Positions 15,196 through 36,731 of a DNA stretch of 64,000 nt are shown piece after piece; positions within the stretch are counted from its first letter, which is position 1, and every line of letters begins with the position of its first letter. Source of the DNA: Qingshengfaniella alkalisoli (GTDB lineage: Bacteria; Pseudomonadota; Alphaproteobacteria; Rhodobacterales; Rhodobacteraceae); contig NZ_CP042264.1 of the NCBI RefSeq assembly GCF_007855645.1, positions 62,001-126,000 on the forward strand. Direction: 5' to 3'. Made by a program: the position numbers and the translations under genes. The notes under the pieces were generated by a model, which worked only from the letters and a program-made list of their open reading frames with translations, did not search any database and had not been told where the DNA came from.

Positions 15196-15984
15196 ATGCA
15201 TGGTTTGCGTGACTCTGGATTGCCATTGACGGTAGAGCCCAACAGGTCGCTTTTGGATTTCCCCGCTACGGTTGAGCGGCGGGTGTTGGCAACCGCGGCA
15301 GTCACCAGCTTGCTTCTGGCCATTGTCGTTACGGTTGGTGGTGCCGTCGTTGGGGTTCACACCCAGATCCCATCAGCGCTTCCACTTCTTCTACTGGGAG
15401 TCTGGACGATCGGCAGTGTGGCGGTTTTTCTTGGCCTGCGCAGCTATCCGCACGGACGGTTTGGCCCCGCAAATGTCGTTACATCTGTCAGGGCGGGCGG
15501 TGTCGTGGTGTTGAGCAGTGTTGCTATTGATCCGAGCATCATGGACCAGATCGGGCGTCTGATGGTCGCTGGGCTCGCTGTCTTCCTATTGGCGTTGGAC
15601 GGATTGGACGGGTTTCTGGCGCGCCGGACGGGGCTTGTCTCTGCCTTTGGGGCGCGCTTTGACATGGAAGTCGACGCGCTGCTTACGCTGGTCCTGTCGC
15701 TCGTTCTCTGGCGAACGGGTATCGTGGCCAGCGTCGTGTTGTTTCTGATCCTTCCTTATTATCTGTTCTGCATAACCAAGAGGTCCTTGCCGTGGCTGTC
15801 TGGTCCGCTGCCACCGTCATTTCGTCGAAAAACGATATGTGTTGTCCAGATCGCCTTGCCGATCTGCCTGCTTGCCATTCCGTTGCCGAAGCCTGTGCCG
15901 ACGGTTGCGGTTGCAATCGTGCTGATGGTGATCCTGTGGTCATTCGTCCGCGATATTCACCGGTTGTGGTCCGTTCGCACATGA
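15196..15984 (+). CDS. CDP-alcohol phosphatidyltransferase family membrane enzyme
   Basis: This is a 262-residue integral membrane enzyme that would transfer a phosphatidyl group from a CDP-activated lipid to an alcohol. The complete signature DG-x2-AR-x8-G-x3-D-x3-D is visible in DGFLARRTG...GARFDMEVD around residues 137-160. About six helices surround it. An extra N-terminal segment of about 25 residues precedes helix 1. The end overlaps the convergent gene at 15957 by 28 bases. The acceptor alcohol (glycerol phosphate, inositol, choline, serine) cannot be told from the motif. Its neighbours suggest a dedicated envelope lipid or head-group pathway. Confidence 0.88.
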   Translation: MHGLRDSGLPLTVEPNRSLLDFPATVERRVLATAAVTSLLLAIVVTVGGAVVGVHTQIPSALPLLLLGVWTIGSVAVFLGLRSYPHGRFGPANVVTSVRAGGVVVLSSVAIDPSIMDQIGRLMVAGLAVFLLALDGLDGFLARRTGLVSAFGARFDMEVDALLTLVLSLVLWRTGIVASVVLFLILPYYLFCITKRSLPWLSGPLPPSFRRKTICVVQIALPICLLAIPLPKPVPTVAVAIVLMVILWSFVRDIHRLWSVRT

Positions 15985-16880
15985 GGATGCAGCAGGAACA
16001 ATGCGCCGGGGAGTGCGGACAGCAGGTTCACCACACCGAACAGCAACGCGGCGGCGACGCCTGCCTCGGCACTGAAACCCGCGAGCGGCCAGAGCGCTGC
16101 CGCAGCACCTTCGCGCAACCCCAGCCCGCCGATCCCTGTGGGAATGATCATCGCAGCAAGGCATACAGGTACAAGGACCAACACGGCCGTGACGTCCATT
16201 TGCGTACCGATGGCCCGAGTGCACAGGGCGAAGCAGCCGATCAAGGCTGTGATCACGATCAGGTTCAGCGGTGCTTGGACGCGCCAAGCGCCGTCAGCAA
16301 CCCATGCCTGCTTGAGCGCGGGACCGAAGGTGGACAAAGCGATACCGATCTTGCCCGCAAGTCGGCCACCGACAAGCAGCGCAATCAGCAACACGCTGAG
16401 AGCGGCGATAAAGACCAAGGCCACGAGCGTGGCATGGCCGATCCCACCGGTCAGAATGCCGATCAGAAGACACAGCGCCAGGGCCACCTGCCCGGCCAGA
16501 CGCTCGATCATGACGCCGCGCACGGAAATCCCCGGTCCGCCATTGTCTCGGTTGCGCCAGACACGCAGGGCATCACCGGAAATACCGCCGGGAAGCGTAG
16601 CGTTCAGAAAGCTGGATACATAGTATTCCCGCACCGCAACACGCAGCGGCACCGGATGGCCAAGCTGCCGGGTCGTGTGGGACCACCTCGTTGCGCTGGC
16701 CAGAATGACAACCTGCGCCATAATACCTGCCATCAGAAGTGGCCACAGGCGGGTAGCACGCAGGGTCTGTACTATATCACGAACGTCGACCACCATCAAA
16801 ACCACGACAAGCGTCACGATCGGCACAGCTATGCGGATAGCTCTCAGCAGGTGCGGCTTTGAGGAGAAGGTCAAACGCAT
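15957..16880 (-). CDS. Lysylphosphatidylglycerol synthase TM-region-like (UPF0104) membrane protein
   Basis: This is a 307-residue polytopic membrane protein with about eight helices, matching the flippase-like membrane half of LPG synthases (UPF0104). Family landmarks include YYVSSFLNATLPGGISGDALRVWRN and, near the C-terminus, IIPTGIGGLGLREGAA. The cytoplasmic aminoacyltransferase domain is absent. In relatives this module flips lipids or lipid-linked material across the inner membrane. The start codon at 16878-16880 coincides with the 5' end of the oppositely oriented enzyme gene, and no good ribosome site is visible. It faces the CDP-alcohol transferase tail to tail. Confidence 0.85.
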   Translation of the reverse strand: MRLTFSSKPHLLRAIRIAVPIVTLVVVLMVVDVRDIVQTLRATRLWPLLMAGIMAQVVILASATRWSHTTRQLGHPVPLRVAVREYYVSSFLNATLPGGISGDALRVWRNRDNGGPGISVRGVMIERLAGQVALALCLLIGILTGGIGHATLVALVFIAALSVLLIALLVGGRLAGKIGIALSTFGPALKQAWVADGAWRVQAPLNLIVITALIGCFALCTRAIGTQMDVTAVLVLVPVCLAAMIIPTGIGGLGLREGAAAALWPLAGFSAEAGVAAALLFGVVNLLSALPGALFLLHPHVRTDHNR

Positions 16881-18457
16881 TGTGGACCACGTTGTGCGTC
16901 GTGCTGCTGTTCTTGCTGTTGCAACTTCCCAGTCACCCGAACGCGCTGACAGTTCGTCACTTTCTGCATCTGCCCTTGGAACTGCCAGTCATCATTTTGC
17001 TTCTCCTCCTTCTGCCGGGGCGATTGATCGCGTTGCGTCTGGCGCTGGTCATGCTGCTTGCACTTCTCACCTTCCTGCGCCTTGCCGATACGGGGATGGT
17101 CCTCGCATTTCAGCGAAATTTCAATCCGGTGCTGGATCTGCATCTTCTGAAGTCCGGTTGGGAATTGTCAGTTGGCACATTCGGCTGGCCGCTCGCATTG
17201 ACTGTGGCAACAGGTGTCGCGGTTCTGTTCATCGGGCTGTTCGTCCTGGTCTTTCATGCGATGGGCCGGCTTGCGCGTCTGAATGGTCGACCGCGCCGCT
17301 GGACAGGCTTGGTGGCTGCGGGACTACTACTGGTTGGTGTCGCGCTCGCGCTCACCGGACAGTCCGGCGTTGTCGAAACGCCGCTGGTCGCGGAATTGCC
17401 CAAACGTGGGGAACGGCTTCATCGGGCGGTCGTGGACGAGTCCCGCTTCGCCGCCGATCTGGCCACCGACGATGTTTCTGTCGCGCCGGATTTTGCGGCA
17501 CTTAAGGGACGGGATGTGATCTTACTGTTCGTGGAAAGTTATGGTCGCAGTTGGCTCGACGCACAACCCTATGCCCAGACTTCGCTTCCCCGTCTTGCGG
17601 TCGTGGGGGACAGGTTTGCAAAGGCGGGACTTTCGGTGCGCTCGGGTTGGGTCCAGGCACCTACTCGAGGCGGGCAGAGCTGGTTGGCGCATGGCGCGGT
17701 CATGTCGGGGCTGTGGACGTCTTCGCAGTCACGCTACGATGCGGTGATAGCGTCCAAACGTCTGTCACTGAACCGGATGTTCGCACAGGCGGGATGGCAC
17801 AGCGTCGCGGTGATGCCTGCCATCACACGCGATTGGCCAGAGGCGGCATGGTACGGTTACGATCAGGTGCTTGCGCATGATGATCTCGGGTATCAGGGGC
17901 AGCCGTTCGAATGGGTGACGATGCCCGACCAATACACCCTAAGCGCAGTGGAAAGGCTGGCGCGACAGGACGGGCGCGACAGCGTGGTCGAAATCGCCCT
18001 GATCACATCGCACGCCCCGTGGACACCGGTGCCGGAGGTTTTGCCGTGGGATCTGATCGGCGATGGGTCGGTGTTTGACGGGACTCAGCGGGCGGGCGCA
18101 ACGCCGCGACAGGTCTGGTCAGATCATGACACGATCCGGGCGGCGTATTCGCGTTCCCTGGATTACTCCATCGAGATCGTTGGCCAATGGGTGGCGCGGT
18201 ATGCCGGTGACGCCTTGGTGGTCGTACTCGGCGACCACCAGCCCGCGCCGCTGGTCGCGGGGGAGGGTGCCAGTGCAGCCGTGCCTATCCATTTCATATC
18301 CGCAGATACGAAGCTGCTTGATCTGTTGCCCGGCAGGTGGAGCGCGGGCATACTCCCTGAAACCGACTTGGCGGAACGCAGCATGACGGAGCTTCGATCC
18401 CTCTTTGCAAATTGTTTCTCCACTGGTGGTTGTTTGCAGCCGGGCGGGGAAAGCTGA
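16880..18457 (+). CDS. Membrane-anchored alkaline-phosphatase-superfamily (sulfatase-like) hydrolase or phosphotransferase
   Basis: This is a protein of about 525 residues with five N-terminal helices and a large periplasmic catalytic domain, the layout of LtaS/OpgB/EptA-type enzymes that move phosphoglycerol or phosphoethanolamine from lipids. Metal-binding motifs visible are LLFVESYG, the PTRGGQSW region around the nucleophile and VVVLGDHQPAP near the C-terminus. The start is uncertain: TTG at 16880 follows AGGAGAAGG by nine bases, while TTG at 16859 is also in frame. The gene ends directly against the ABC ATPase gene. It may release or transfer a head group that the adjacent importer then takes up; that link is inference. 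Confidence 0.82.
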   Translation: MWTTLCVVLLFLLLQLPSHPNALTVRHFLHLPLELPVIILLLLLLPGRLIALRLALVMLLALLTFLRLADTGMVLAFQRNFNPVLDLHLLKSGWELSVGTFGWPLALTVATGVAVLFIGLFVLVFHAMGRLARLNGRPRRWTGLVAAGLLLVGVALALTGQSGVVETPLVAELPKRGERLHRAVVDESRFAADLATDDVSVAPDFAALKGRDVILLFVESYGRSWLDAQPYAQTSLPRLAVVGDRFAKAGLSVRSGWVQAPTRGGQSWLAHGAVMSGLWTSSQSRYDAVIASKRLSLNRMFAQAGWHSVAVMPAITRDWPEAAWYGYDQVLAHDDLGYQGQPFEWVTMPDQYTLSAVERLARQDGRDSVVEIALITSHAPWTPVPEVLPWDLIGDGSVFDGTQRAGATPRQVWSDHDTIRAAYSRSLDYSIEIVGQWVARYAGDALVVVLGDHQPAPLVAGEGASAAVPIHFISADTKLLDLLPGRWSAGILPETDLAERSMTELRSLFANCFSTGGCLQPGGES

Positions 18458-19588
18458 ATGGTAGGGCTGTCCCTGTTTGGATTGACACGTCGCTTCGGTG
18501 AAGGCCAACCGACGGTTGACGGGATCGATCTGGTCGTTGCTGACAAGGAATTCGTGGTGTTGGTCGGCCCATCGGGCTGCGGCAAATCCACAACCTTGCG
18601 CCTGATCGCCGGGTTGGACGCGCCGGATGCGGGCACGATTCACATCGGAGAACGAGAGGTTCAGGGTCTGGACCCCGGCGCACGGGATGTTGCTATGGTG
18701 TTTCAGAACTACGCGCTTTACCCGCATATGACGGTCGCGCGGAATCTCGGGTTCGGGCTGCGCAAGCGCGGTCTGGCGAAAGCCGAACGCGTGGCGCGCG
18801 TAAAGGACGCGGCTCGTATGCTGGAGATCGAGGACCTGTTGGATCGTCGACCCGCGGCGCTGTCAGGGGGCCAACGTCAACGTGTTGCGATGGGGCGGGC
18901 GCTGGTGCGTGAGCCCGCGCTCTTTCTGTTCGACGAGCCGCTTTCCAATCTGGATGCGCGTCTTCGAACGCAGATGCGCACGGAAATCAAGCGCATGTCT
19001 CGGGTCGCGGAAACTACGTCCATTTTCGTGACGCATGATCAGGTGGAGGCCATGACGATGGCGGATCGCGTGGTTGTCATGCGGGATGGAAGAATCGAGC
19101 AAGCCGCGACGCCCATGCAAATCTACCACCAACCGGCGACGCGGTTCGTGGCCGAGTTCGTGGGGTCGCCTGCGATGACAATCCTGCCTGCACAGATCGG
19201 GGATGGCGGTCAGACCGTTTCGTTGCTCGGTCAACGCTTTGAGGTTCCGAACGAACGGCAAGCCGATTTTGTCCAGCATTCGCGTCGCCGGATCGAGATC
19301 GGCTTCCGGCCTGAAGACATGCGCCTTGGCGGCCCTGTGCCCGCGCGGGTCGAGGTCGTGGAAGCATTGGGGGTTGAAGCACTGGTGCATGTCGCGACTG
19401 AAGACGGCCCGCGATGCAGTCTGCGGATGGCACCTGTCGACGCGCCTCGAACGGGTGACAAAGTGGGTCTGTTGCCCGACATTGCGCGCGCGCACCTGAT
19501 CGATCCGGCGAGTGGCCGCGTACTCAGCGCACCGCCCATTCCTCAGAACCGTACCCCTTACGCTATACCCGAAGGAGAGACTGGATGA
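18458..19588 (+). CDS. ABC importer ATP-binding protein (MalK/UgpC type)
   Basis: This is a 376-residue ATPase of the CUT1 (MalK/UgpC) group. Walker [10 protein letters not shown] is at 37-45; the signature LSGGQRQRV, Walker [13 protein letters not shown] and switch histidine in IFVTHDQ follow. The last 130 residues form the MalK-type regulatory OB domain. The start touches the stop of the preceding enzyme gene, and its end overlaps the receptor gene by four bases (ATGA), so enzyme and importer are one transcript. Such ATPases serve sugars, polyols or glycerol phosphates. Confidence 0.93.
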   Translation: MVGLSLFGLTRRFGEGQPTVDGIDLVVADKEFVVLVGPSGCGKSTTLRLIAGLDAPDAGTIHIGEREVQGLDPGARDVAMVFQNYALYPHMTVARNLGFGLRKRGLAKAERVARVKDAARMLEIEDLLDRRPAALSGGQRQRVAMGRALVREPALFLFDEPLSNLDARLRTQMRTEIKRMSRVAETTSIFVTHDQVEAMTMADRVVVMRDGRIEQAATPMQIYHQPATRFVAEFVGSPAMTILPAQIGDGGQTVSLLGQRFEVPNERQADFVQHSRRRIEIGFRPEDMRLGGPVPARVEVVEALGVEALVHVATEDGPRCSLRMAPVDAPRTGDKVGLLPDIARAHLIDPASGRVLSAPPIPQNRTPYAIPEGETG

Positions 19589-20871
19589 TTTCTCGTATCG
19601 CACTTGTCGCCGCAGTTGCTGGCGCGACGCCGCTTCTGGCGCAGGACGACTTGATCACACGAACGCGCGTTGGCCCCGCCGATGCGCCGAACGTGATGAC
19701 CTTTCGTCTGACCGCCTATGATCTCTATGCGCAAGATCCCGATATGCGGGCGACGTTCGGCGAGTTGTTCCTTAAGATGTTGGAAAGGTTTCCCGATTGG
19801 CAAATCGAAACGCAACTTCAGACGGATGACATCGGGCAGGAACAGGCGCGCATGCTGGAACAGGCGCGGGCCGGACGCGGGCCGGATTGTGCGATGATCG
19901 ACAGTTCATCACTTGGCGCCTACAAGGCCGCCGATGTGCTGTCGCCGATGAACGCACATTGGAGCGCCGAGGAAATCGACGACCTGTTTCCTTTCGTGCG
20001 TGAGGCGGTGACTGACGCTGACGGTAACCTTCTGGCATGGTGGTGGTTCACCGATTTGCGCGTACTCTACCGTGATACGCGCGTTGTCGAGGACGCCCCT
20101 GCTACATGGGCGCAGGCGCTGGCCGCTGCGGCCAAATCGGTTGAAGACGGATATGAAGGACTCCTGTTTTCGGGCGGTCGTTGGGAGGGGACGACGCTGG
20201 ACTGGCTCGGTAATTTCTGGGCGGCAGGTGGCCGCTTGGTGGATGACGATGGCCGTCCCGTCTTTGGCGAAGGCGCGAACCGCGCCGCGTTTCTGGACGC
20301 GCTCGGATACTACCGGGAATTGGTGGAAAGCGGCGCGAGCCCTGCGCGTGTCGCGTCCATTACGAATTACGATGATTTCAATGCCGCTGCCGCCGCAGGC
20401 ACAACGGCCATGTTCGTGGGCGGATCGTGGCAATACGGACAGCTTGAAGGCACGTTGTCGCCGGAGGACTTCACCGAATGGGAAGTTTCGGAACTGCCGG
20501 GCCCGACCGCCGATCAACGTGCGGCGGGCGCTGGCGGCTGGACCATCGGCGCGATGTCGGACGATCCCGACAAAGTCGCGCTGTGTGCCGCTATTGCCAA
20601 ACATGTCTATTCGGGTGCAGGCAATGCAGTGCAGGGGCTTTTGCCGACCTCGGCGGCGCAATACGAACAGTATGACGTGTTCTCGACGCCGGTCAATCTG
20701 GCCTATTCGGAATTTTTGCAGAACGGACGCCCACGCCCCGGGGTGCCGATCTATCCCGAGATATCCAACCAGATCCAGATCCTGATCGGCGAGGTCATTG
20801 CTGGCGAAGACCCTGACGCCGCTCTGGACCGCGCGCAGGCGGCGGCGCTTGATGCGTGGGGCAGGCTCTGA
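19585..20871 (+). CDS. ABC importer periplasmic substrate-binding protein (CUT1 family)
   Basis: This is a 428-residue type I extracellular binding protein. A signal peptide ends near residue 19 (LLAQ|DD). The mature chain has the usual two-lobed pattern: LTAYDLYAQ..., DCAMIDSSSLGAY, AWWWFTDLRVLYRD, and a cleft-type AMFVGGSWQYG segment. A run of tryptophans at 154-156 could stack against a sugar or polyol ring. The start has GGAGA upstream and overlaps the ATPase gene by four bases. Ligand unknown; the upstream phosphatase-superfamily enzyme makes a phosphodiester or polyol worth testing. Confidence 0.9.
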   Translation: MISRIALVAAVAGATPLLAQDDLITRTRVGPADAPNVMTFRLTAYDLYAQDPDMRATFGELFLKMLERFPDWQIETQLQTDDIGQEQARMLEQARAGRGPDCAMIDSSSLGAYKAADVLSPMNAHWSAEEIDDLFPFVREAVTDADGNLLAWWWFTDLRVLYRDTRVVEDAPATWAQALAAAAKSVEDGYEGLLFSGGRWEGTTLDWLGNFWAAGGRLVDDDGRPVFGEGANRAAFLDALGYYRELVESGASPARVASITNYDDFNAAAAAGTTAMFVGGSWQYGQLEGTLSPEDFTEWEVSELPGPTADQRAAGAGGWTIGAMSDDPDKVALCAAIAKHVYSGAGNAVQGLLPTSAAQYEQYDVFSTPVNLAYSEFLQNGRPRPGVPIYPEISNQIQILIGEVIAGEDPDAALDRAQAAALDAWGRL

Positions 20872-21737
20872 ACCGGGGGGCGCATCCGCTCGCTTGGCTC
20901 GCGCCGGTCATCCTTGTTCTCGGCGCGATCTATTTGTGGCCGCTTCTGGATGCAATCCGTCTGGCCTTCACCGACGCGACATTGCTCAACGGCGTGCGCA
21001 GCTATACCCTGTCATCGGTCACGAGCACGCTAGGTGATCCAGCGCTACCGCAAATCTTGCGTGCCACCGCGATCTTCACGGGGGCGAGCGTTATCCTGTT
21101 GCAGTCCCTTGGGTTGGCCATCGCGCTTCTCGTCACGCGTGGAGATCGGCGCGGGCTTCCGGGCATGGCCGCGCTTCGGACCTTGGTTCTCGCGGCATGG
21201 ATTGTGCCGGGCGTTGCGAATGGCCTGATCTGGCAGATCATGTTCTCCGAGGCACCCTTCGGCGGCCTGAACTCCGTCATCGGGATGATCGGGTTGGGCC
21301 CAGTCGCATGGCTGTCGGATCCGCAAATGGCCATGGTGTCCGCGGTCGTGGCCAATATCTGGCAGGGTACGGCTTTTTCAATGATCCTTTACTATGCGGC
21401 GTTGCGCGGCTTGGATCCGTCGCTGGATGAAGCCGCTCGTGTGGATGGTGCAACGTCCCTTGACCGATTCATTTTCATCACGATGCCTCAATTGAAAGGC
21501 GCGATGCTGGCGGGCACGATTCTGGTGACGATCCAGACGCTCAACACCTTTGATTCCATCATCGCACTGACCGGCGGTGGGCCGGGACGCGCGACAGAGG
21601 TGCTGGCGTTGTTCACCTATAACACGGTGTTTCGCAGTTTCGATCTGGCGGGCGGCGCGGTGTTGGCATTGCTTCTGGTTGCGATCAGCCTTGCTCTCGC
21701 GGCGGTCTATGCGTTGTTACTGAGGCAGCGCACGTGA
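20856..21737 (+). CDS. ABC importer permease (MalF type)
   Basis: This is a 293-residue inner membrane permease with six helices and the cytoplasmic EAA loop EAARVDGATSLDRFIFITMP, which docks the ATPase. It overlaps the receptor gene by 16 bases and the second permease by four, as in CUT1 operons. It forms the translocation pore together with the next gene. Confidence 0.92.
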   Translation: MGQALNRGAHPLAWLAPVILVLGAIYLWPLLDAIRLAFTDATLLNGVRSYTLSSVTSTLGDPALPQILRATAIFTGASVILLQSLGLAIALLVTRGDRRGLPGMAALRTLVLAAWIVPGVANGLIWQIMFSEAPFGGLNSVIGMIGLGPVAWLSDPQMAMVSAVVANIWQGTAFSMILYYAALRGLDPSLDEAARVDGATSLDRFIFITMPQLKGAMLAGTILVTIQTLNTFDSIIALTGGGPGRATEVLALFTYNTVFRSFDLAGGAVLALLLVAISLALAAVYALLLRQRT

Positions 21738-22570
21738 TGCGGGGCGGCAGACCAGCAGATATCGCAACCTATCTGGCGCTGATGCTCGTCGCGGCGTTTT
21801 TCGTTGGTCCCTTGCTGTGGCTGGTGTCACTGGCGCTGCGCACGTCCGCCGAGGTCTATCGCGGCGCTGCGGCGTTCATTCCCGACCATCCGACATTGGC
21901 CAATTTCCGACAGATCCTGAACGATCCCGCCTTCGCCATCTACTTGTGGAACGGGGTGAAGCTGTCGGTGCTTGGCGCGGCGCTGGCGGTGATCTGCGCG
22001 GCGCCTGCCGCCTATGCGTTTTCACGGTTGAGCTTTCGGGGGCGTGGTGCAGGGCTGTGGTTGATCCTGGCAGTTCAGATGATATCGCCGCTTGTCATTC
22101 TGATCCCTCTATATCGCTACTATGATTGGTTGGGCTTGTTGGAAAATCATATGGCGGTTGTGGCGGTTTACGGCGCGATAGGCATCCCGTTGACCGTCTG
22201 GCTGTTGCGCGCAGGGTTCCACCGGATCCCGGTTGAAATCGAAGAAGCCGCGCGTCTCGACGGGTATTCCCGGCTTGAAACAATGGTTCTGGTGACCTTG
22301 CCTTTGGCTGCACCCTCACTTGCAGCTGCATTCGTGCTGAATGTCGTGATGAATTGGGGACAGTTCCTTGTGCCGTTCATCTTGCTGAGTTCAGATCCCA
22401 AGTGGCCAATATCGGTTGCGATCTACCGGTTTGCGGGTTCGACCAACGCCTCGACCACACAGTTGCTGGCTGCGGCCTGCCTCGTAGCATTAGTTCCGGC
22501 GATTGTGGTTTTTCTTGCGCTGCAACGACTTTTGACAAGAGCATTGACCGGAGGCGCACTAAAAGGCTGA
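21734..22570 (+). CDS. ABC importer permease (MalG type)
   Basis: This is a 278-residue permease with six helices and the EAA loop EEAARLDGYSRLETMVLVTLP. Its start overlaps the preceding permease by four bases (GTGATG context). It completes the ATPase-receptor-permease-permease importer. The order with ATPase first differs from the receptor-first order of the smo importer later in the window. Confidence 0.92.
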   Translation: MMRGGRPADIATYLALMLVAAFFVGPLLWLVSLALRTSAEVYRGAAAFIPDHPTLANFRQILNDPAFAIYLWNGVKLSVLGAALAVICAAPAAYAFSRLSFRGRGAGLWLILAVQMISPLVILIPLYRYYDWLGLLENHMAVVAVYGAIGIPLTVWLLRAGFHRIPVEIEEAARLDGYSRLETMVLVTLPLAAPSLAAAFVLNVVMNWGQFLVPFILLSSDPKWPISVAIYRFAGSTNASTTQLLAAACLVALVPAIVVFLALQRLLTRALTGGALKG

Positions 22571-22594: not shown

Positions 22595-23140
22595 ATGTCA
22601 ACCGAGCTGACCGGATTCACAACGACTGCGCGACTGTTCCACTGGTTGGTTGCATGTCTTGTCCTGCTGATGATCGCAGCAGGCCTGACCATGGTGCAAC
22701 AGGGGTTGCCGCGACCGGTTCAGAATAGCTTGTATGTCTTCCATAAAAATACTGGCGTCATCATCCTGTTCATCATGCTGGCGCGATTGATCTATCGGTT
22801 ACGCAATCCCTATCCACCTCTGCCAGAAATGCCCGCGCTTCAACGGCTGGCGGCGGAGGCGAACCACATCGCTCTTTACGTGCTGATCTTCATGATGCCC
22901 CTGTCGGGATATATCAGGGTGCGGGCAGGCAGATACCCGATCGAATGGATCGACAAGCTGGGACTGCCAATTCTGATCCCGAAGTCCAAGCCGCTGGAAG
23001 AAGTCGCCCAAGCGATCCATTATTACTGCGCAATGATCCTGATCGCAGCGATCCTCATGCATATCGGAGCGGCGCTGTATCACGGAATCTGGCGTCGTGA
23101 CGGTCTTTTGGGCCGCGTATGGCCACCGGTTCAACGGTGA
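22595..23140 (+). CDS. Cytochrome b561 family di-heme membrane protein
   Basis: This is a 181-residue bacterial cytochrome b561 (CybB-like) with four helices. Candidate heme-ligand histidines are His16, His50, His142 and His156, with His91 and His163 nearby. Such proteins pass electrons between quinol and soluble or periplasmic partners, for example superoxide. It begins 24 bases after the ABC permease and may be read through from that operon, but no functional link is apparent. Confidence 0.9.
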   Translation: MSTELTGFTTTARLFHWLVACLVLLMIAAGLTMVQQGLPRPVQNSLYVFHKNTGVIILFIMLARLIYRLRNPYPPLPEMPALQRLAAEANHIALYVLIFMMPLSGYIRVRAGRYPIEWIDKLGLPILIPKSKPLEEVAQAIHYYCAMILIAAILMHIGAALYHGIWRRDGLLGRVWPPVQR

Positions 23141-23224: not shown

Positions 23225-24748
23225 ATGCGTTTCTGCACTGTAATTCTTCTTTGTTTTTTGCAGCTATCGTCGTCGGTTTGGGCTGATGGGCGTGTGGCAT
23301 TGTTGATCGGAAATGGCGACTACAGCAATCCGGAATTTGTGCTGGGCAATCCGGCCAATGATGTAGCGGCACTTGATGAAGCTTTGACCCGCTTGGGTTT
23401 CGAGGTCCGTAGCCAGACAAATTTGTCGAGGCCGGAGATGCTGGATTCGCTGGATTGGTTTCAGGAAACAGCCAATGGCGCGGAGATTGCCCTGGTTTTC
23501 TATGCCGGTCACGCGGTACAGGCAGATGGAGAGAACTTTCTGATCGGAACCGATCTGGTCAGTCCCACAGTGCCGGCGCTGATCGACGAGAGCCTGACAC
23601 TTAGCGAACTGCACGCGGTGATCGAGGGCGTGGGCGCAGATTTGTCCTTGGTCGTTCTGGATGCCTGCCGCAATAACCCGTTTGGCGATGTCCAGATTGT
23701 CCAGCCCGGTTTGGCACCTGCATCGGGTTCTGTCGGGACGCTTGTCGCATATGCGACCGATCCCGGAAATGTGGCGGCGGATGGCTTGGGCGACAACAGC
23801 ATTTTCACGAGCGCCCTTTTGCAGAATATCGAAACGCCGGGTATCGATGTGCGCATAATGTTCGGGCGTGTGAGGCAAGAGGTTGTCCGCGATACTGCTG
23901 GCCGACAAGTCCCGTGGGTCGAGGAGGCGGTGATAGGTGAATATTATTTGTCGGAGCCGCCGGATCCTCTTGATCCGGGCGATGAACTTCGTATCTGGCG
24001 CGAAGCTGTCAATGCCGGCAGTGTGGAGAGCTACCTGGATTATCTCGATCGCTTTCCCGAGGGTCTTTACAAAATCGTTGCCGAACTCCGGGTTGACGTC
24101 CTGCGCGGAAACGTTTTTCAAACAGCCGAACTGGCGTCAGTTGAATTACCCGATGCAACTGCCGCTTTGCAGCTGATCGGATATTTGGTTCCGGGCGCAA
24201 CCGACCCTGCGGATAGCGAAGTCCTGCAGGCGTTTACGCATTGGCAGTCCTCCCAGCCTGTTGGCGTACGAAACTTCGAAGCATTGATGCTTGATGCGGC
24301 CAGCACGGCAACCTTCCTGGGTACCTATTCTGCCGGGATACTTAAAAACGATCTGCAACGATACGCGTCCGTTGATGAGGCTCTGAGAACGGCTCGGGAC
24401 AATATGGAAGTCGCTGAAATTGAGTTCCAAGACAACCCTGATGCCGAGCCAGTTCTTCAGTCAATGCGGACAGAAATCTCTGAAATCGAACTCATACATC
24501 GAGGTGTGGCCGCAGATTTGGATGCAAGCCGGACCTTCTACAGCGACTTGATACTCCTCGTGGACAGGCATTTGACAGATTGGTTGTCCGACGAAGCCCA
24601 ACCCCGGTTTGCGACCAGTCGAGGCATAACCCACCTGTCTGATAGAGCGCTTTCAGATGCCCAGATGTTTTACGACCATCTCAGGCTGGCACGCGACGCC
24701 CCCGAAGGATCATATTCGTGGTTGGCATCCATGATGCAGGAGAATTGA
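23225..24748 (+). CDS. Exported caspase-like (C14 family) peptidase
   Basis: This is a 507-residue protein with a signal peptide ending near residue 20 (SSVWA). The caspase p20 fold follows: RVALLIGNGDYSN, the catalytic histidine His96 in FYAGHAVQ and the catalytic cysteine Cys148 in LDACRNNPF. The C-terminal 250 residues are acidic and largely helical with no domain I recognise. Bacterial caspase homologues cut after Arg or Lys, often in stress or cell-death settings. Export makes this one periplasmic or surface-associated. The gene precedes a small lipoprotein gene by three bases, suggesting a working pair. Confidence 0.88.
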   Translation: MRFCTVILLCFLQLSSSVWADGRVALLIGNGDYSNPEFVLGNPANDVAALDEALTRLGFEVRSQTNLSRPEMLDSLDWFQETANGAEIALVFYAGHAVQADGENFLIGTDLVSPTVPALIDESLTLSELHAVIEGVGADLSLVVLDACRNNPFGDVQIVQPGLAPASGSVGTLVAYATDPGNVAADGLGDNSIFTSALLQNIETPGIDVRIMFGRVRQEVVRDTAGRQVPWVEEAVIGEYYLSEPPDPLDPGDELRIWREAVNAGSVESYLDYLDRFPEGLYKIVAELRVDVLRGNVFQTAELASVELPDATAALQLIGYLVPGATDPADSEVLQAFTHWQSSQPVGVRNFEALMLDAASTATFLGTYSAGILKNDLQRYASVDEALRTARDNMEVAEIEFQDNPDAEPVLQSMRTEISEIELIHRGVAADLDASRTFYSDLILLVDRHLTDWLSDEAQPRFATSRGITHLSDRALSDAQMFYDHLRLARDAPEGSYSWLASMMQEN

Positions 24749-26061: not shown

Positions 26062-27099
26062 ATGAAAGCTCTGGTTCTGGAAGAAAAGGGCAAGCTGTCC
26101 CTGCGTGATTTCGATATTCCCGGCACCATGGGGCCGCGTGATGTGCGCATCAAGACGCATACGGTTGGGATCTGCGGGTCGGATGTTCATTACTATACAC
26201 ATGGCAAAATCGGGCATTTCGTCGTGAAAGAGCCGATGGTGCTTGGACACGAGGCTGCAGGTACGGTCGTCGCTTGCGGTGACGAAGTGTCGGATCTTAA
26301 GCTCGGAGATCGCGTTTGCATGGAGCCAGGAATTCCCGATACGGACAGCCGGGCCAGCAAGCTCGGGATCTACAACGTCGACCCCGCCGTGCGCTTTTGG
26401 GCGACCCCGCCAGTGCATGGCTGCCTTACGTCGGAGGTGATCCATCCCGCGAGCTTCACCTACAAGCTTCCGGAGAGCGTCAGCTTTGCCGAGGGGGCCA
26501 TGGTGGAACCTTTTGCGATCGGTATGCAAGCAGCCCTTCGCGCCCGGATTCAACCGGGTGATATTGGTGTCGTTTCGGGCGCAGGCCCCATCGGCATGAT
26601 GGTCGCTCTGGCGGCTTTGGCCGGTGGTTGTGCGAAGGTAATCGTGACGGACTTGGCGCAACCCAAGCTGGACATCATCGGTGCGTATGACGGGATCGAT
26701 ACAGTCAACATCCGCGACAAGAGCGCAGCACAGTCTGTCGCGGAAGCAACGGATGGCTGGGGTGCAGATATCGTGTTCGAATGTTCGGGCGCTGCACCGG
26801 CGGTACTTGGAATGCATGAGTTGGCCCGCCCCGGAGGTGCGATCGTGCTTGTAGGGATGCCCGTCGATCCCGTTCCGGTGGATATCGTTGGACTTCAGGC
26901 GAAGGAATTGCGGCTGGAGACGGTATTCCGCTACGCCAATGTCTATGACCGGGCGATTGCGCTGATGGCGTCCGGAAAGGTGGATCTTAGGCCCCTTGTT
27001 TCCGGAACTATTCCGTTCGAGGACAGCATTGCCGGGTTCGACCGGGCCGTGGAAGCGCGCGAAACGGATGTGAAGCTTCAAATCCGGATGCCCGACTAG
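26062..27099 (+). CDS. Zinc-dependent polyol dehydrogenase (xylitol / sorbitol dehydrogenase type)
   Basis: This 345-residue medium-chain dehydrogenase oxidises a polyol to a ketose with NAD. Catalytic zinc ligands are Cys38 in GICGSD and His63-Glu64 in GHEAAG, with Glu near 149 in MVEPF. The NAD fold is GAGPIGMM. The four-cysteine structural zinc loop is absent, as is usual in several bacterial xylitol and sorbitol dehydrogenases. A strong GAGGAGGG site precedes ATG. As the first gene of the polyol region it most likely makes D-xylulose from xylitol or D-fructose from sorbitol; which one is not decidable from sequence. Confidence 0.9.
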
Positions 27100-27391
27100 C
27101 ATGCGCAGGTCCGGTTGGGCCGATGCGGGTGTTGGCCTGACAGGATGCCGTCGCTGCGGTTACGCTAGGCGACACCGCAATCGTGGGCATAAGGGCCTGA
27201 TCGTGGAAACTTTGAATGGTACGGTCTTGCTTGGAGACCTGAATAACGGTTTGAATCCAATAAAGATCACCCCTTATCTTTCGGATGTCATCGAAGAGCT
27301 TACCATTCTGCTGACCATCGACATAGCCCGCGAGGTGCAATCGATCCCAGCATGCACCGACGCATGCACGGTAAACCATGGAGAAATGTGA

Positions 27392-28123
27392 ATGTCTGAA
27401 ACGCTTACTGGCAAGGTCGCCGTCGTCACGGGTGCCGCTTCGGGTATCGGCCTTGCCGCCGTCGAGATGCTTTTGAAAAGTGGCTGCAAGGTTGTCATGG
27501 TGGACCGTGATACCGCCGCTCTCGATACCCTGGTTGCCAGGCTCGGCGACAATGCCGTGCCGCAGGTGACCGATCTGCTGGACTTCGACAGCTGCAACGC
27601 GATGGTCCCGGAGATCCTCGAAAAGGTCGGGCATATCGACATTCTCTACTGCAACGCAGGCAGCTACATCGGTGGCGATATATGGGACACAGATCCGGAA
27701 AGCATTGACCGGATGGTGAACCTGAATGTCAACGCGGTGATGAAGAACATCAACGCCGTCATTCCGCATATGATGGAACGCAAGACGGGCGATATCGTTG
27801 TGACCAACTCCATCGCGGGCCATTTTCCTGCGGAATGGGAGCCGGTCTATTCCGCGTCGAAATGGGCGATCACCAGCTTCATGCAGGGCGTGCGGCGACA
27901 GATGATCCCCTACGGCGTGAAAGTGGCACAAGTGTCACCCGGACCGGTGATTTCCGCACTGCTGGCCGATTGGCCCGAAGAAAACCTGCGCAAGGCCAAG
28001 GAAGCCGGCGCGCTGATGGATCCCGAAGAGGTCGCCGAGGCGCTGGAATTCATGTTGACGCGCAAGCGTGGAGTGACGGTGCGTGACGTCATCATCATGC
28101 CTACCGCTTTCGAGCGGATGTGA
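27392..28123 (+). CDS. rbtD: Ribitol 2-dehydrogenase (SDR family)
   Basis: This 243-residue short-chain dehydrogenase has the cofactor loop GAASGIG, the NAG motif and the catalytic YSASK. Several segments match what I recall of Klebsiella ribitol dehydrogenase: AGSYIGG, the WEPVYSASKWA region, VSPGPVISALLADWP, and the C-terminal VTVRDVIIMP. It should convert ribitol plus NAD to D-ribulose. It starts 292 bases after the previous dehydrogenase with a GGAGAA site. The D-ribulokinase-type kinase that would act next is 8.6 kb downstream. Confidence 0.85.
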   Translation: MSETLTGKVAVVTGAASGIGLAAVEMLLKSGCKVVMVDRDTAALDTLVARLGDNAVPQVTDLLDFDSCNAMVPEILEKVGHIDILYCNAGSYIGGDIWDTDPESIDRMVNLNVNAVMKNINAVIPHMMERKTGDIVVTNSIAGHFPAEWEPVYSASKWAITSFMQGVRRQMIPYGVKVAQVSPGPVISALLADWPEENLRKAKEAGALMDPEEVAEALEFMLTRKRGVTVRDVIIMPTAFERM

Positions 28124-28142
28124 ACCTTGTGGCGGCGCCCCG

Positions 28143-28256
28143 TCTCCTCCCCTCTGGGATGCGGTCTGTCAGTCGATCTGTGATCTGGTGGCGGCAGGTG
28201 GTATTGACCCTGCCGATTGGAAGGCCTGTACAGTGATTGCGAGGCTGCGAGTGTAA
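28143..28256 (+). pseudogene. Possible remnant of an FGGY-family kinase
   Basis: Just after rbtD, one frame reads PLWDAVCQSICDLVAAGG then IDPADWKACTVI before a stop at 28254-28256. This resembles the segment of FGGY kinases just before the DATCSLV motif; the intact kinase at 36732 has VWAAVCEAVQQAV at residues 51-63. The rest of a kinase is absent. Because rbtD and a ribulokinase gene are normally adjacent, a decayed kinase here is plausible. The match is short, so confidence is limited. Confidence 0.4.
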
Positions 28257-28461
28257 CAGAGACGAGATAAGCTTTCGGCGCTCTTTGTCGCGAGTTTCCG
28301 TCAGACGCATGCCTGCGACCGGGGTATCGGTAACGCTTGACGCGGCTCGTTATGATGCATTCCTTGCGTTCGTTCCACGAGTTCGCTCGCGAAATGCGCG
28401 GGTAGATACAGGCAAGTGCCAACTGAGGATCGGGCTGCGGCTCAATCAAAGGAAGAAATTC

Positions 28462-29187
28462 ATGCAGTTTTCGGACAAGACAGTTATCATCACCGGCGCG
28501 GGCAAAGGCATAGGTCGAGCCTGCGCGCATATCATGGCCGCCCGTGGTGCAAATGTTGTGGCATTGACACGCACCCGGGCAGATCTCGACACGCTCTACT
28601 CGGAGATCGGAAGTCGCGGAATACAAGTTGATCTTGCGGACGTTGCGGCCACTCGCGCGGCGATGGCGGATGCCGGACGCGCCGACTTTCTTATCAATTC
28701 CGCGGGTGTCAATATATTGGAATCTGTTTTCGACCTGACTGATGATGGTTATGAGGCGGTCATGGGCGTCAATTTGCGCGCAGCGCTGATTACCTGTCAG
28801 GAATTCGCACGCATGCGAATGGCGGCGGGTGGCGGCGGAGCCATCGTAAACATCACATCGATCGCAGGTCATCGGGGGTTTCCGGATCACCTATCATACG
28901 CCGCTTCGAAAGCTGGTCTCGAAGGCGCAAGCCGGGTGATGGCCAAAGAACTCGGTCCGCACGGGATTCGGGTGAACTGCGTGGCCCCTACGATCACACT
29001 GACTGAACTTGCCGCGGCCGCATGGGCGGACCCAACGAAGTCCGAGCCTATGATGGTGCGCCACCCTCTGGAACGATTTGCGGATGCAGAAGACATCGCC
29101 GAGAGCATCGCGATGCTCCTTTCAGAGGATTCCAAGATGATGACGGGAGCAGTGCTTCCGGTCGACGGTGGCTTCTTGGCCGTTTAA
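28462..29187 (+). CDS. L-xylulose reductase-like short-chain dehydrogenase
   Basis: This is a 241-residue SDR. The GAGKGIG cofactor loop, the TRTRADLD stretch after strand 2 (the arginines favour NADP), the AAVNS-type INSAGV motif, catalytic YAASK and C-terminal LPVDGGFLAV closely follow the pattern of dicarbonyl/L-xylulose reductases (DCXR). These interconvert xylitol and L-xylulose. The start at 28462 has AAAGGAAGAAATTC upstream; the frame is open to 28237 but that part shows no fold. It sits between rbtD and the SorC regulator in the polyol region. Confidence 0.82.
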   Translation: MQFSDKTVIITGAGKGIGRACAHIMAARGANVVALTRTRADLDTLYSEIGSRGIQVDLADVAATRAAMADAGRADFLINSAGVNILESVFDLTDDGYEAVMGVNLRAALITCQEFARMRMAAGGGGAIVNITSIAGHRGFPDHLSYAASKAGLEGASRVMAKELGPHGIRVNCVAPTITLTELAAAAWADPTKSEPMMVRHPLERFADAEDIAESIAMLLSEDSKMMTGAVLPVDGGFLAV

Positions 29188-29313
29188 CCTGACTATGCGG
29201 AGACGATCGCGCTTGTATTCCGATCCGCTATCGCTGTCTTTATGTTAATGAGAGCAGGGATTATCCAAGAGAGCAGTACATAATGTGCGCCATTCTGGCC
29301 ATCAGGAGATAGT

Positions 29314-30255
29314 ATGCAAGGTAAGGCCAAGAGACTGGATGACGCCGCGCGGGCGGGTTGGCTTTATTATATTGCAGGTAACACGCAGGACGAGATTGCG
29401 TCGAAGCTGGGTGTGTCGCGCCAATCCGCACAGCGCCTTGTAGCGCAAGCGATGCAGTCTGGGATGGTCAAGGTGCGCATCGATCATCCGATCGCGAATT
29501 GCCTATCGCTCGCCCGTGAACTTGTCGACCGGTTCGATCTTGAGGATAGCGAAGTTGTGCCGACCGACCCGGCCTCTGACGATGCAACGCTGGGCGTGGC
29601 GGAGGCGACAGCGGATGACATGGAAAGCTGGTTGTCACGCCCGGAGCCGATCACGATGGCGCTGGGGACGGGGCGAACGCTTCGGGCGGCGGTGGCCTGT
29701 CTGCCCCATCTGGACTGCGCGCAGCATCGGATCGTTTCGCTGACGGGTAATATATCGCCGGATGGATCGACGGCACATTACAACGTCATTTTCAGTGTTG
29801 CGGACATTGTCAGTGCCCGGACCTTTCCAGTGCCACTGCCAGTGATTGCGAGCTCACCCGAAGAACGCGACATGCTGCAGTCCCAGCCAATGGTGAGGGC
29901 AACCTTCCGGCTTGCACAAGATGCAGATGTGGCCTTCATCGGTATCGGAGAAATGGGTCCGAACGCGCCGCTCGTGAAGGACGGGTTCATTACGGTGCAA
30001 GACGCGAATGACCTCTGTGCCAGCGGAGTAGTTGGAGAAATCCTCGGTTGGGTCTTCGACGAGAAAGGCGCATTCATTCAAGGCGCAACGAATCTACGCG
30101 TTGCGTCGGCTCCAGTGCCCTCTCCGAACAGGTCAAAGGTCATTGCCGTAGCCAAAGGTAACCAGAAAATTTCAGCAATTCGCGCCGCTTTGAAGGGGAA
30201 CCTCGTGAGCAAGTTGATTACAGATGAAGCAACCGCGCTGGCACTTCTGAAATAG
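29314..30255 (+). CDS. SorC/DeoR-type sugar-binding transcriptional regulator
   Basis: This 313-residue regulator has an N-terminal helix-turn-helix (about residues 22-45, NTQDEIASKLGVSRQSAQRL) and a C-terminal SorC effector domain with the ALGTGRTLRAAV and GEILGWVFDEKG segments that bind phosphorylated sugars in relatives. An AGGAGA site precedes ATG. It lies directly upstream of the smo importer, separated by a terminator and a promoter, so it is the likely controller of the polyol genes, with a ketose or its phosphate as inducer. Confidence 0.9.
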   Translation: MQGKAKRLDDAARAGWLYYIAGNTQDEIASKLGVSRQSAQRLVAQAMQSGMVKVRIDHPIANCLSLARELVDRFDLEDSEVVPTDPASDDATLGVAEATADDMESWLSRPEPITMALGTGRTLRAAVACLPHLDCAQHRIVSLTGNISPDGSTAHYNVIFSVADIVSARTFPVPLPVIASSPEERDMLQSQPMVRATFRLAQDADVAFIGIGEMGPNAPLVKDGFITVQDANDLCASGVVGEILGWVFDEKGAFIQGATNLRVASAPVPSPNRSKVIAVAKGNQKISAIRAALKGNLVSKLITDEATALALLK

Positions 30256-30293
30256 AATAGAATTAAGAACAAAGGTTTAGGTGATCATGGTCT

Positions 30294-30320
30294 CCGTCGC
30301 TGCAAAGCGGCGGCTTTTTT
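30294..30320 (+). terminator. Rho-independent terminator after the SorC regulator
   Basis: A 7-bp stem (CCGTCGC 30294-30300 with GCGGCGG 30307-30313, one G-T pair, loop TGCAAA) is followed by C and six T residues. It ends the regulator transcript just before the smo promoter. Confidence 0.85.
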
Positions 30321-30322
30321 GA

Positions 30323-30351
30323 TTGACAATATTGCATCTCCGAAGTGAATA
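30323..30351 (+). promoter_or_regulatory. Putative promoter of the smo-mtlK operon
   Basis: TTGACA at 30323-30328 directly follows the terminator; 17 bases later lies TGAATA, within the AT-rich TGAATATAT stretch (30346-30354). The receptor start codon is about 50 bases further on. The -35 box is perfect; the -10 box is weak, as expected for a promoter needing activation. Confidence 0.5.
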
Positions 30352-30400
30352 TATGCCCCATAGAATAGCAAATGCCCACTTGATGGTTTGGGAGGATCTC

Positions 30401-31726
30401 ATGACATTCAAAGCAAAGTCCCTGTACGGGGCGTGCGCGGCAATGGCGCTGGCGACCGGCGCTTCGGCGCAGGACACCACGCTGACGATTGCCACGGTGA
30501 ACAATGGCGACATGATCCGCATGCAAGGGCTGACCGCGGACTTCGCCACGAAGCATCCCGATATCGCGCTCGAATGGGTGACGCTGGAAGAAAACGTCCT
30601 GCGTCAGCGTGTGACAACCGACATCGCGACGGGTGGCGGGCAGTACGATGTGCTGACCATCGGCAATTACGAAGTGCCGATCTGGGCGCGACAGGACTGG
30701 CTGACGCCGCTTGAAGGTATGCCGGAAGGCTACGATGCTGACGACATCCTGCCCGCGATCGCCGGTGGTCTGTCGGTAGATGGCACGCTCTACGCGGCCC
30801 CGTTCTACGGCGAAAGCGCGATGGTGATGTATCGCACCGACCTGGCCGAAGCCGCCGGGATCGACATGCCCGACCAGCCGACTTGGACTGATATCAAGGC
30901 CGCGGCAGAGGCGATGACCGATGAAGAAGCGGGCATTTACGGCATCTGCCTGCGCGGGAAGCCGGGCTGGGGTGAAAACATGGCCTTCATCACGGCGATG
31001 TCCAACAGCTACGGCGCGCGCTGGTTTGATGGCGATTGGAACGCGCAGTTCGACAGCCCGGAATGGAACGCGACGCTGACGGATTATCTGGATCTGATGA
31101 ACAATTACGGCCCACCGGGTGCATCGTCGAACGGGTTCAACGAAAATCTTTCGCTGTTCCAGCAAGGCAAATGCGGCATGTGGATCGACGCAACCGTGGC
31201 AGCCAGCTTTGTGACGGATGCGGATGATTCCACCGTTGCCGACAGCGTCGGCTTCGCGCAGTTCCCGAACAAGGAAGGCGTGGACAATCACGGCAACTGG
31301 CTGTGGTCGTGGAACCTTGCCATTCCCGCTTCGACGGACGCGCCGGATGCGGCAAAGGCGTTCGTGGCCTGGGCGACCAGCAAGGACTACACCGCACTTG
31401 TTGCGCAGGAAGAAGGCTGGTCAGCCGCACCTCCGGGAACGCGGACATCGCTTTATGAAAACGTGGACTACCAGGCCGAGGCACCATTTGCCGAAATGAC
31501 CCTGAACTCCATCAACGCGGTCGATACGACCAAGCCGTCGGTACAGGAAATTCCGTATACCGGGGCGCAGTTCGTCGCGATCCCGGAATTCCAGGGGATT
31601 GGTACGGCGGTCGGACAGATCTTCTCTGCCGCGCTGGCGGGTCAGATGGATGTGGATCAGGCATTGCAATCCGCGCAGCAACAAACCCAGCGCGAGATGG
31701 ATCGCGCGGGGTATCACGACAAGTAA
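30401..31726 (+). CDS. smoE: Polyol (sorbitol/mannitol) ABC importer substrate-binding protein
   Basis: This is a 441-residue periplasmic receptor of the CUT1 family. The signal peptide MTFKAKSLYGACAAM... ends at GASAQ (about residue 23). The mature protein begins DTTLTIATVNNGDMIRMQG and carries EWVTLEENVLRQRVTTDIATGGGQYD, a pattern I associate with SmoE/mannitol-binding proteins of Rhodobacteraceae. GGGAGGATCTC precedes the start at 30401. It is the first gene of the importer operon, and a strong 3' hairpin follows. Confidence 0.88.
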   Translation: MTFKAKSLYGACAAMALATGASAQDTTLTIATVNNGDMIRMQGLTADFATKHPDIALEWVTLEENVLRQRVTTDIATGGGQYDVLTIGNYEVPIWARQDWLTPLEGMPEGYDADDILPAIAGGLSVDGTLYAAPFYGESAMVMYRTDLAEAAGIDMPDQPTWTDIKAAAEAMTDEEAGIYGICLRGKPGWGENMAFITAMSNSYGARWFDGDWNAQFDSPEWNATLTDYLDLMNNYGPPGASSNGFNENLSLFQQGKCGMWIDATVAASFVTDADDSTVADSVGFAQFPNKEGVDNHGNWLWSWNLAIPASTDAPDAAKAFVAWATSKDYTALVAQEEGWSAAPPGTRTSLYENVDYQAEAPFAEMTLNSINAVDTTKPSVQEIPYTGAQFVAIPEFQGIGTAVGQIFSAALAGQMDVDQALQSAQQQTQREMDRAGYHDK

Positions 31727-31751
31727 AGCTTCTCCTTCCTGCTTTGCTCCC

Positions 31752-31782
31752 GTTGCAGGGGTGGTGTCTCCATCCCTGCAAC
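31752..31782 (+). other. Strong intercistronic stem-loop between smoE and smoF
   Basis: Arms 31752-31764 and 31770-31782 pair over 13 bp (GTTGCAGGGGTGG with CCATCCCTGCAAC, one G-T pair) around a 5-base loop TGTCT. No T run follows, so it is unlikely to be a full terminator. Its position after the receptor gene fits a 3' mRNA-protecting or attenuating element that lets receptor mRNA exceed permease mRNA. Confidence 0.75.
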
Positions 31783-31817
31783 CTAACCCACCACCGATCT
31801 GACCGGAGAGCCACATC

Positions 31818-32690: not shown

Positions 32691-32691
32691 C

Positions 32692-33522: not shown

Positions 33523-33533
33523 GGACAAGATCT

Positions 33534-34532: not shown

Positions 34533-34559
34533 TCCGAGCTGACGACAAGGACTTAGACC

Positions 34560-36038: not shown

Positions 36039-36041
36039 CGG

Positions 36042-36719: not shown

Positions 36720-36731
36720 CAGGAGAGAGCG

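Follow-up and report, generated by a model that had tools for sequence, protein, structure and literature searches.

The stretch analysed here, referred to below as the window, comprises 64,000 nucleotides of Qingshengfaniella alkalisoli (Rhodobacteraceae; contig NZ_CP042264.1, positions 62,001 to 126,000). Between positions 15196 and 22570 it contains a compact set of seven genes in which enzymes of phospholipid head-group type are combined with an ABC importer of the CUT1 family. In order these specify a CDP-alcohol phosphatidyltransferase (15196–15984, plus strand; 262 amino acids), a flippase-like membrane protein of the LPG_synthase_TM type (15957–16880, minus strand; 307 amino acids), a predicted membrane-anchored transferase of the LtaS/EptA/OpgB kind (16859–18457, plus strand; 532 amino acids from a TTG codon, the start being uncertain), a UgpC/MalK-type ATPase (18458–19588, plus strand; 376 amino acids), the CUT1 substrate-binding protein or receptor (19585–20871, plus strand; 428 amino acids), and the CUT1 permeases A (20856–21737, plus strand; 293 amino acids) and B (21734–22570, plus strand; 278 amino acids). 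A cytochrome b561 gene (22595–23140, plus strand; 181 amino acids; PF01292, 109 bits) lies directly 3' of the set. According to the table of open reading frames (ORFs) those of the transferase and ATPase abut at 18457/18458, and the ATPase, receptor and permease ORFs overlap at 19585–19588, 20856–20871 and 21734–21737. The flippase ORF overlaps that of the phosphatidyltransferase by 28 nt and that of the transferase by 22 nt; since it lies on the minus strand between these two genes, one transcript for all seven is impossible. The original prediction, made from the letters of the sequence, had described these ORFs, their families and their close packing; all seven are present, and profile scores confirm the families.

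The phosphatidyltransferase passes Pfam PF01066 (43.8 bits; cut-off 22). Its catalytic motif, D-x2-DG-x2-AR-x8-G-x3-D-x3-D, is complete, as it is in all 100 loci for which the gene was called, the window included. It scores far under the cut-offs of every named subfamily that it matches, PgsA being the closest NCBIfam model and a weak one (26.8 against an equivalog cut-off of 109.1). The flippase passes PF03706 (114.9 bits; cut-off 33.4), the sole domain that a profile scan found in it. The aminoacyltransferase domain is absent, in agreement with the original description of an LPG-synthase-type module lacking this part.

The transferase has no sequence relative in the PDB at E 0.01, profile search included, and with 22.7 it falls just short of the cut-off of 25 for the Pfam Sulfatase model (PF00884). 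Its AlphaFold2 model, built from 36 proteins, has a mean pLDDT of 92.6. Using VIA-align 2 the best matches to this model are LtaS (Z 22.0), LtaP (21.1), GacH (20.7) and EptC (20.1), and Foldseek agrees for ranks 1 to 4; MCR-2 and MCR-1, with Z about 19, are within a tie of the best sulfatase (18.3). Residues E226, S274, H385, D459 and H460 are invariant across the 36 sequences. Going by the LtaS numbering, we take these to be the probable metal-binding residues and nucleophile, with Ser274 presumably sitting where LtaS has its Thr nucleophile. From the modelled fold we infer that this sulfatase-like protein is a head-group transferase. The membrane-anchored enzyme of the alkaline phosphatase superfamily proposed originally is thus borne out, with a predicted fold nearest to LtaS-type head-group transferases.

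The importer is complete, as had been claimed: besides the ATPase it has an SBP_bac_8/SBP_bac_1 receptor and two BPD_transp_1 permeases (PF00528; 53.0 bits for A, 64.2 bits for B). The ATPase passes the UgpC-type model NF008653, which describes a broad subfamily (455.7 bits; cut-off 432). Both permeases are far under the equivalog cut-offs of UgpA (58.4 against 335) and UgpE (70.9 against 297). The nearest solved structures to the receptor are 5ci5, MalE3, SmoF and a trehalose/maltose binding protein; at E 1e-10 the receptor profile listed 11 chains, UgpB not being one of them, which alone excludes nothing. Relatives of the receptor occur in 154 plasmid records, mostly rhizobial and mostly 50–58% identical among the matches listed. 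A GH38 alpha-mannosidase gene lies near such relatives (50–55% identical) in three of the four loci that were opened. At the A. vitis and Aureimonas loci the permease genes are followed by the GH38 gene, while at the R. johnstonii locus it is found ca. 3 kb upstream on the other strand; ROK regulators are present at all three, and the A. vitis GH38 assignment was confirmed. No GH38 gene is annotated at the locus of R. leguminosarum Ta6k, though the gene table there has gaps. Permeases A and B are 56% and 51% identical, respectively, to the A. vitis permeases beside GH38. A haloarchaeal receptor, 30% identical to that of the window, has a GH76 gene nearby.

Because of these GH38 genes the sequence context makes an alpha-mannoside the likelier ligand of the importer than a glycerophosphodiester. 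Glycerophosphodiesters and glycerol phosphate, which the original prediction had named for ligand screening, are disfavoured both by this context and by the low UgpA and UgpE scores of the permeases. A search for GH38 (other alpha-mannosidase families were not part of it) was negative in 10 of 11 CUT1 genomes; catabolism through GH38 is therefore unlikely in these genomes and the imported compound may be used intact.

Gene maps of related loci were prepared with tblastn and a codon-model gene caller, and the neighbourhood was defined as lying within 12 genes of the transferase. From 108 loci with a called transferase we dropped L031 (D. shibae, the same as L024) and L137 (the same as L033), leaving 106. 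Among these no further pair reaches 97% DNA identity over 70% of the gene; near copies stay in, as do L081 and L128, which belong to one genome. L170, 100% identical to L115, was excluded from the CUT1 counts. The transferase is present in 23 of 198 genomes of the family, in 27 plasmid records, and in at least 559 of 592 pattern matches in named genomes, the best 80 of which were examined. It forms, with the phosphatidyltransferase and the flippase, a core which is conserved in the Rhodobacterales and Hyphomicrobiales. Called genes for the phosphatidyltransferase and flippase were obtained in 99 and 79 of the 106 loci, respectively, and tblastn recovers core genes missed by the caller (e.g. 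in L032, L063 and L123). At one locus (L063:5735-8326) an acyltransferase gene, a CdsA-like cytidylyltransferase gene and a further gene for a small membrane protein stand ahead of the core. A gene of the PF03372 endonuclease/exonuclease/phosphatase family is close to the core in 14 of the 106 loci (e.g. L054:7571-8296), and its product could dephosphorylate what the phosphatidyltransferase makes. A plasmid of Streptomyces fungicidicus carries a relative of the transferase with none of the reference genes in its 25-kb stretch, and a PTPS-like gene elsewhere. No description of this gene set was found in the open-access literature searched, which is not proof that none exists.

The genes that accompany the core fall into three modules. 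Biosynthesis genes are found in 62 of the 106 loci, with a PTPS-like protein, a zinc-dependent alcohol dehydrogenase (Zn-ADH) and a GT4 glycosyltransferase in all 62, a methyltransferase in 52, a RibD_C reductase in 50 and GTP cyclohydrolase II in 39. A THI5-like importer is found in 16 loci, 14 of them with GT4, and the CUT1 importer in 11, none of them with GT4. Two modules never occur at one locus (0 of 106). No relative of either the CUT1 or the THI5-like receptor lies within 12 genes at the 62 biosynthesis-type loci; other ABC genes occur near some of these in variable positions. The remaining 17 loci have no module nearby, and 13 of them carry one elsewhere in the genome: PTPS and GT4 (L050, L053, L056, L073, L095, L097, L098, L105, L109, L125), PTPS with GT4 inside the locus (L047), the THI5-like importer and GT4 (L052) or the CUT1 receptor (L043). 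L104, L110 and L129 have a partial biosynthesis set in stretches which are cut, and in L127 GT4 is present and PTPS was not found. In 64 of the 106 loci the 12-gene neighbourhood of the transferase includes a cytochrome b561 gene. Either a b561 or a YceI gene, never both, is found near the core in L032, L033, L054, L058, L061, L063, L079, L115, L123, L169, L171–L176 and the window, and neither in L057 and L168; this exclusivity at the CUT1 loci looks like another alternation.

The genome-wide search for the CUT1 receptor covered the family sample and a 390-genome sample of the order, and that for the THI5-like receptor the family sample. A GT4 orthologue is present in all 31 tested genomes having a core locus of another kind (19 of 19 that have the transferase but no CUT1 receptor, and 12 of 12 of another kind). 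The corresponding counts for CUT1 genomes are 0 of 4, 2 of 7 and 2 of 10, which, G408 being the same as G203, amounts to 3 of 20 distinct genomes; the difference gives a Fisher p of 8e-11, ignoring phylogeny. Culturable CUT1-type strains that lack GT4 include Jannaschia rubra CECT 5088, Palleronia abyssalis CECT 8504 and Loktanella sp. DSM 29012; Dinoroseobacter shibae DFL 12 is of THI5 type. PTPS was detected in 2 of the 11 CUT1 genomes tested, and neither PTPS nor GT4 orthologues were found in the window's own genome. The THI5-like receptor (≥70% identity) is present in 16 family-sample genomes, 13 with the transferase and none with the CUT1 receptor.

At E 1e-100 the CUT1 receptor was found in 13 of the 390 order genomes, and all 13 carry the transferase. 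In 12 of these the phosphatidyltransferase, transferase and flippase lie in the receptor's locus in several gene orders, while in the thirteenth (G457, assembled in 340 contigs) the transferase is on another contig. The family sample gave four receptor genomes, each with the transferase, three genomes being common to the two samples. In all there are 19 distinct CUT1 loci with the core. Since the linkage persists while gene order varies it probably reflects function rather than chance neighbourhood. The original prediction would have been refuted by an arrangement confined to close relatives; it is not so confined, the receptor occurring in 10 of the 140 genera of the order sample.

A tree of the transferase was calculated from 102 proteins, L034, L043, L065 and L128 also being left out of the 106. 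Fifteen loci with no module nearby were labelled by the modules found elsewhere in their genomes, except L104, L110 and L129, for which the partial biosynthesis genes in the cut stretches were used. On this tree the module must have switched between the three kinds at least 10 times. The transferase of the window is nearest to those of L051 and L052, both THI5-type, L052 having been typed from elsewhere in its genome.

The GTP cyclohydrolase II of the relatives scores over its model cut-off, and the RibD_C reductase was also identified. The PTPS-like protein is annotated in the records as 6-carboxytetrahydropterin synthase, and is nearest to SCO6650 (3d7j), with 124.5 bits. The latter is reported to adopt the PTPS fold while lacking both the metal site and the catalytic triad. 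Ordinary PTPS/QueD chemistry was considered for the relatives' pathway and rejected, the NCBIfam scores being under cut-off; it is unlikely because the consensus of the 62 PTPS-like proteins has no conserved Cys. Judged from their sequences, the enzymes of the relatives suggest a heterocycle chemistry starting from GTP. Two relatives of the THI5-like receptor have solved structures, and one of these (3ix1, E 4e-8) is a pyrimidine-binding protein. GT4 enzymes are retaining glycosyltransferases and include alpha-mannosyltransferases; for this reason, and because of the GH38 context, our working idea is that the CUT1 importer takes up a glycoside that GT4 would otherwise make. In Agrobacterium, according to one report (PMC13259868), pterins in the periplasm serve as signals, arriving there by a mechanism that is unknown; a link between these and the pathway of the relatives is speculation.

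In E. coli, according to another report (PMC3818809), membrane-anchored enzymes of the layout found here load the osmoregulated periplasmic glucans (OPGs) with phospho-head groups taken from phospholipids, OpgB transferring phosphoglycerol from phosphatidylglycerol. MdoG, MdoH or OpgC is encoded near 7 of the 19 distinct CUT1 loci (5 of the first 11 and 2 of the 8 further ones), near 4 of the 16 THI5-type loci and near 2 of the 17 others; an MdoH homologue lies at G000:C5:305281-306303. OPG genes near CUT1 loci, together with the E. coli precedent, make OPG a candidate acceptor, mainly in the Rhodobacterales, and by analogy it is possibly the acceptor of the head group. On plasmid pOB3b1 of Methylosinus trichosporium (L151) an MdoH gene lies beside Zn-ADH, PTPS-like, GT4 and RibD genes; a transferase of the window's family is not annotated in the stretch shown.

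Our preferred reading, in which we have moderate confidence, is that the core constitutes a pathway dedicated to a phospholipid head group and served by an exchangeable supply module. The alcohol brought into the cytoplasm by the CUT1 importer would be a finished one, probably alpha-mannosidic, and the phosphatidyltransferase would join it to CDP-diacylglycerol; the flippase would turn the resulting lipid outward, and the LtaS/EptA/OpgB-like enzyme would pass the phospho-head group on to an acceptor in the periplasm, which might be OPG. Importer, phosphatidyltransferase, flippase and transferase are consistent with one route, inward and then outward, in this proposed order of steps. In the relatives the GT4 glycosyltransferase would feed the same core from a compound which is either imported by the THI5-like system or made, the latter by the PTPS-like protein, Zn-ADH, methyltransferase, RibD_C reductase and, often, GTP cyclohydrolase II. 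Two unrelated importers and one biosynthesis set replace one another almost exclusively around the core, which predicts that the compound supplied is the same, or an equivalent one, in all three cases.

Several observations weigh against this reading. Three CUT1 genomes (G203, G204 and G451) also have a GT4 orthologue, G203 and G204 additionally carry biosynthesis genes, and G063 has both the THI5-like importer and biosynthesis genes. G011, G124 and G187 possess the THI5-like importer and GT4, and no transferase was detected in them at E 1e-15. The CUT1-cassette and transferase trees of the 11 CUT1 loci are not in significant conflict (approximately unbiased test, p 0.144), so that transfer of the cassette between core lineages was not upheld and its repeated capture is not proven. 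The predicted structure of the receptor is unusable (pLDDT 40.4), and the GH38 context was read in four of the 154 plasmid records, rhizobial or related. Foldseek, unlike VIA-align 2, places a sulfamidase at rank 5 for the transferase, above MCR-1. Lastly, OPG genes are near only 2 of the 62 biosynthesis-type loci, and none lies within the neighbourhood of the window's core.

The stretches opened in the three genomes lacking the transferase are of some interest in themselves. At L131 (G011), L132 and L146 (G124) and L133 (G187) the THI5-like importer and GT4 genes are accompanied by that of an MdoH-like glucosyltransferase, L131 also having a cytochrome b561 gene and L133 a YceI gene; no phosphatidyltransferase, flippase or transferase gene was found in these four stretches.

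Among the alternatives, the CUT1 operon might be an ordinary alpha-mannoside uptake system which merely neighbours a separate lipid locus. The rhizobial relatives, with UgpC, receptor, permeases, GH38 and ROK regulators, do look catabolic, but in the Rhodobacterales 12 of 13 receptor genomes have it linked to the core, despite several gene orders, and the GH38 search described above was negative in 10 of 11 CUT1 genomes; we regard simple catabolism as unlikely.

The importer might instead recover a head-group product which the transferase, or a hydrolase, releases in the periplasm. This was the final step of the original prediction, and the abutting of importer and transferase genes, together with their conserved linkage, would suit it. 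An importer serving recovery should stay with the core, yet the importers alternate with biosynthesis genes: 62 of the 106 core loci have such genes and no relative of either receptor nearby, and 16 have the unrelated THI5-like importer. Nor does recovery predict the lack of GT4 in 17 of 20 CUT1 genomes. That the importer supplies the pathway is thus better supported, and recovery appears improbable. The earlier steps of that model (formation of the lipid, flipping, and periplasmic transfer of its head group) remain a likely inference from the gene families, the predicted fold and the conserved linkage.

Least probable, to our mind, is that the core makes an ordinary donor such as phosphatidylglycerol for phosphoglycerol transfer to OPG, the modules supplying something else for the same glycan: PgsA as closest model, the PF03372 phosphatase-like gene near the core in 14 loci and the E. 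coli OpgB reaction (PMC3818809) speak for it, but the CDP-alcohol enzyme is far under the PgsA cut-off, and an importer delivers to the cytoplasm, in which there would be no need for a periplasmic acceptor.

If a dedicated head-group pathway with exchangeable supply is accepted, a more specific and rather doubtful proposal can be made. The core may define an undescribed class of phospholipid which would donate its head group to a periplasmic glucan; this head group would consist of a pyrimidine- or pterin-like compound derived from GTP and carried as a glycoside, perhaps as an alpha-mannoside. This compound would be shared: some bacteria would make it, some would import the aglycone by the THI5-like system and glycosylate it, and others, the organism of the window included, would take up the ready-made glycoside by way of CUT1. 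A redox role would be in keeping with the cytochrome b561 gene so often found nearby. The swap of supply modules around one lipid core makes a widespread and uncharacterised gene cluster testable; its study might uncover a new lipid head group or substituent of glucans in Alphaproteobacteria from marine habitats and plants, and perhaps also a substance passed from producers to scavengers.

With respect to the surroundings of the seven genes, a caspase-domain (Peptidase_C14) protein is encoded at 23225–24748, directly after cytochrome b561. The region 26062–38258 contains a second sugar importer (receptor, permeases and ATPase) with genes for a mannitol-type dehydrogenase, a HAD hydrolase and an FGGY kinase, and looks like a polyol catabolic operon. 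The seven-gene region has a higher G+C content (0.607) than the whole window (0.578), and recent gain was considered on this basis and not upheld. The third-position values of its genes (0.65–0.74) overlap those of the other window genes measured (0.58–0.83), so no such claim is made.

Comparison with known systems shows where the locus is conventional and where it is not. The PTPS-like protein of the relatives resembles SCO6650; the GTP cyclohydrolase II/RibD/PTPS-like set to which it belongs is a property of those relatives, its PTPS component and GT4 not having been found in the window's genome. The importer is like the Ugp system in its CUT1 gene set and its UgpC-type ATPase, and differs in permeases which miss the UgpA and UgpE cut-offs and in a receptor nearest to sugar/glycoside binders and to GH38-linked receptors. 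The flippase shares the LPG_synthase_TM domain (PF03706) with MprF and lacks the C-terminal aminoacyltransferase domain of the latter, scoring 23.6 against the MprF model cut-off of 600. OpgB and OpgE, as described in PMC3818809, are membrane-anchored with a periplasmic catalytic domain, and the window enzyme is predicted to be alike; mdoG, mdoH or opgC moreover adjoin the core in some genomes. The core of the window differs from the OpgB/OpgE system in having no OPG gene beside it and in adding a dedicated CDP-alcohol enzyme, a flippase and a supply module. Finally, the transferase is only 11–14% identical to the LtaS/EptA-type enzymes and has Ser274 in place of the Thr nucleophile of LtaS, but it also possesses a helical N-terminal part, and LtaS/LtaP, GacH, EptA/MCR and EptC are the best fold matches of its periplasmic domain (Z about 19–22).

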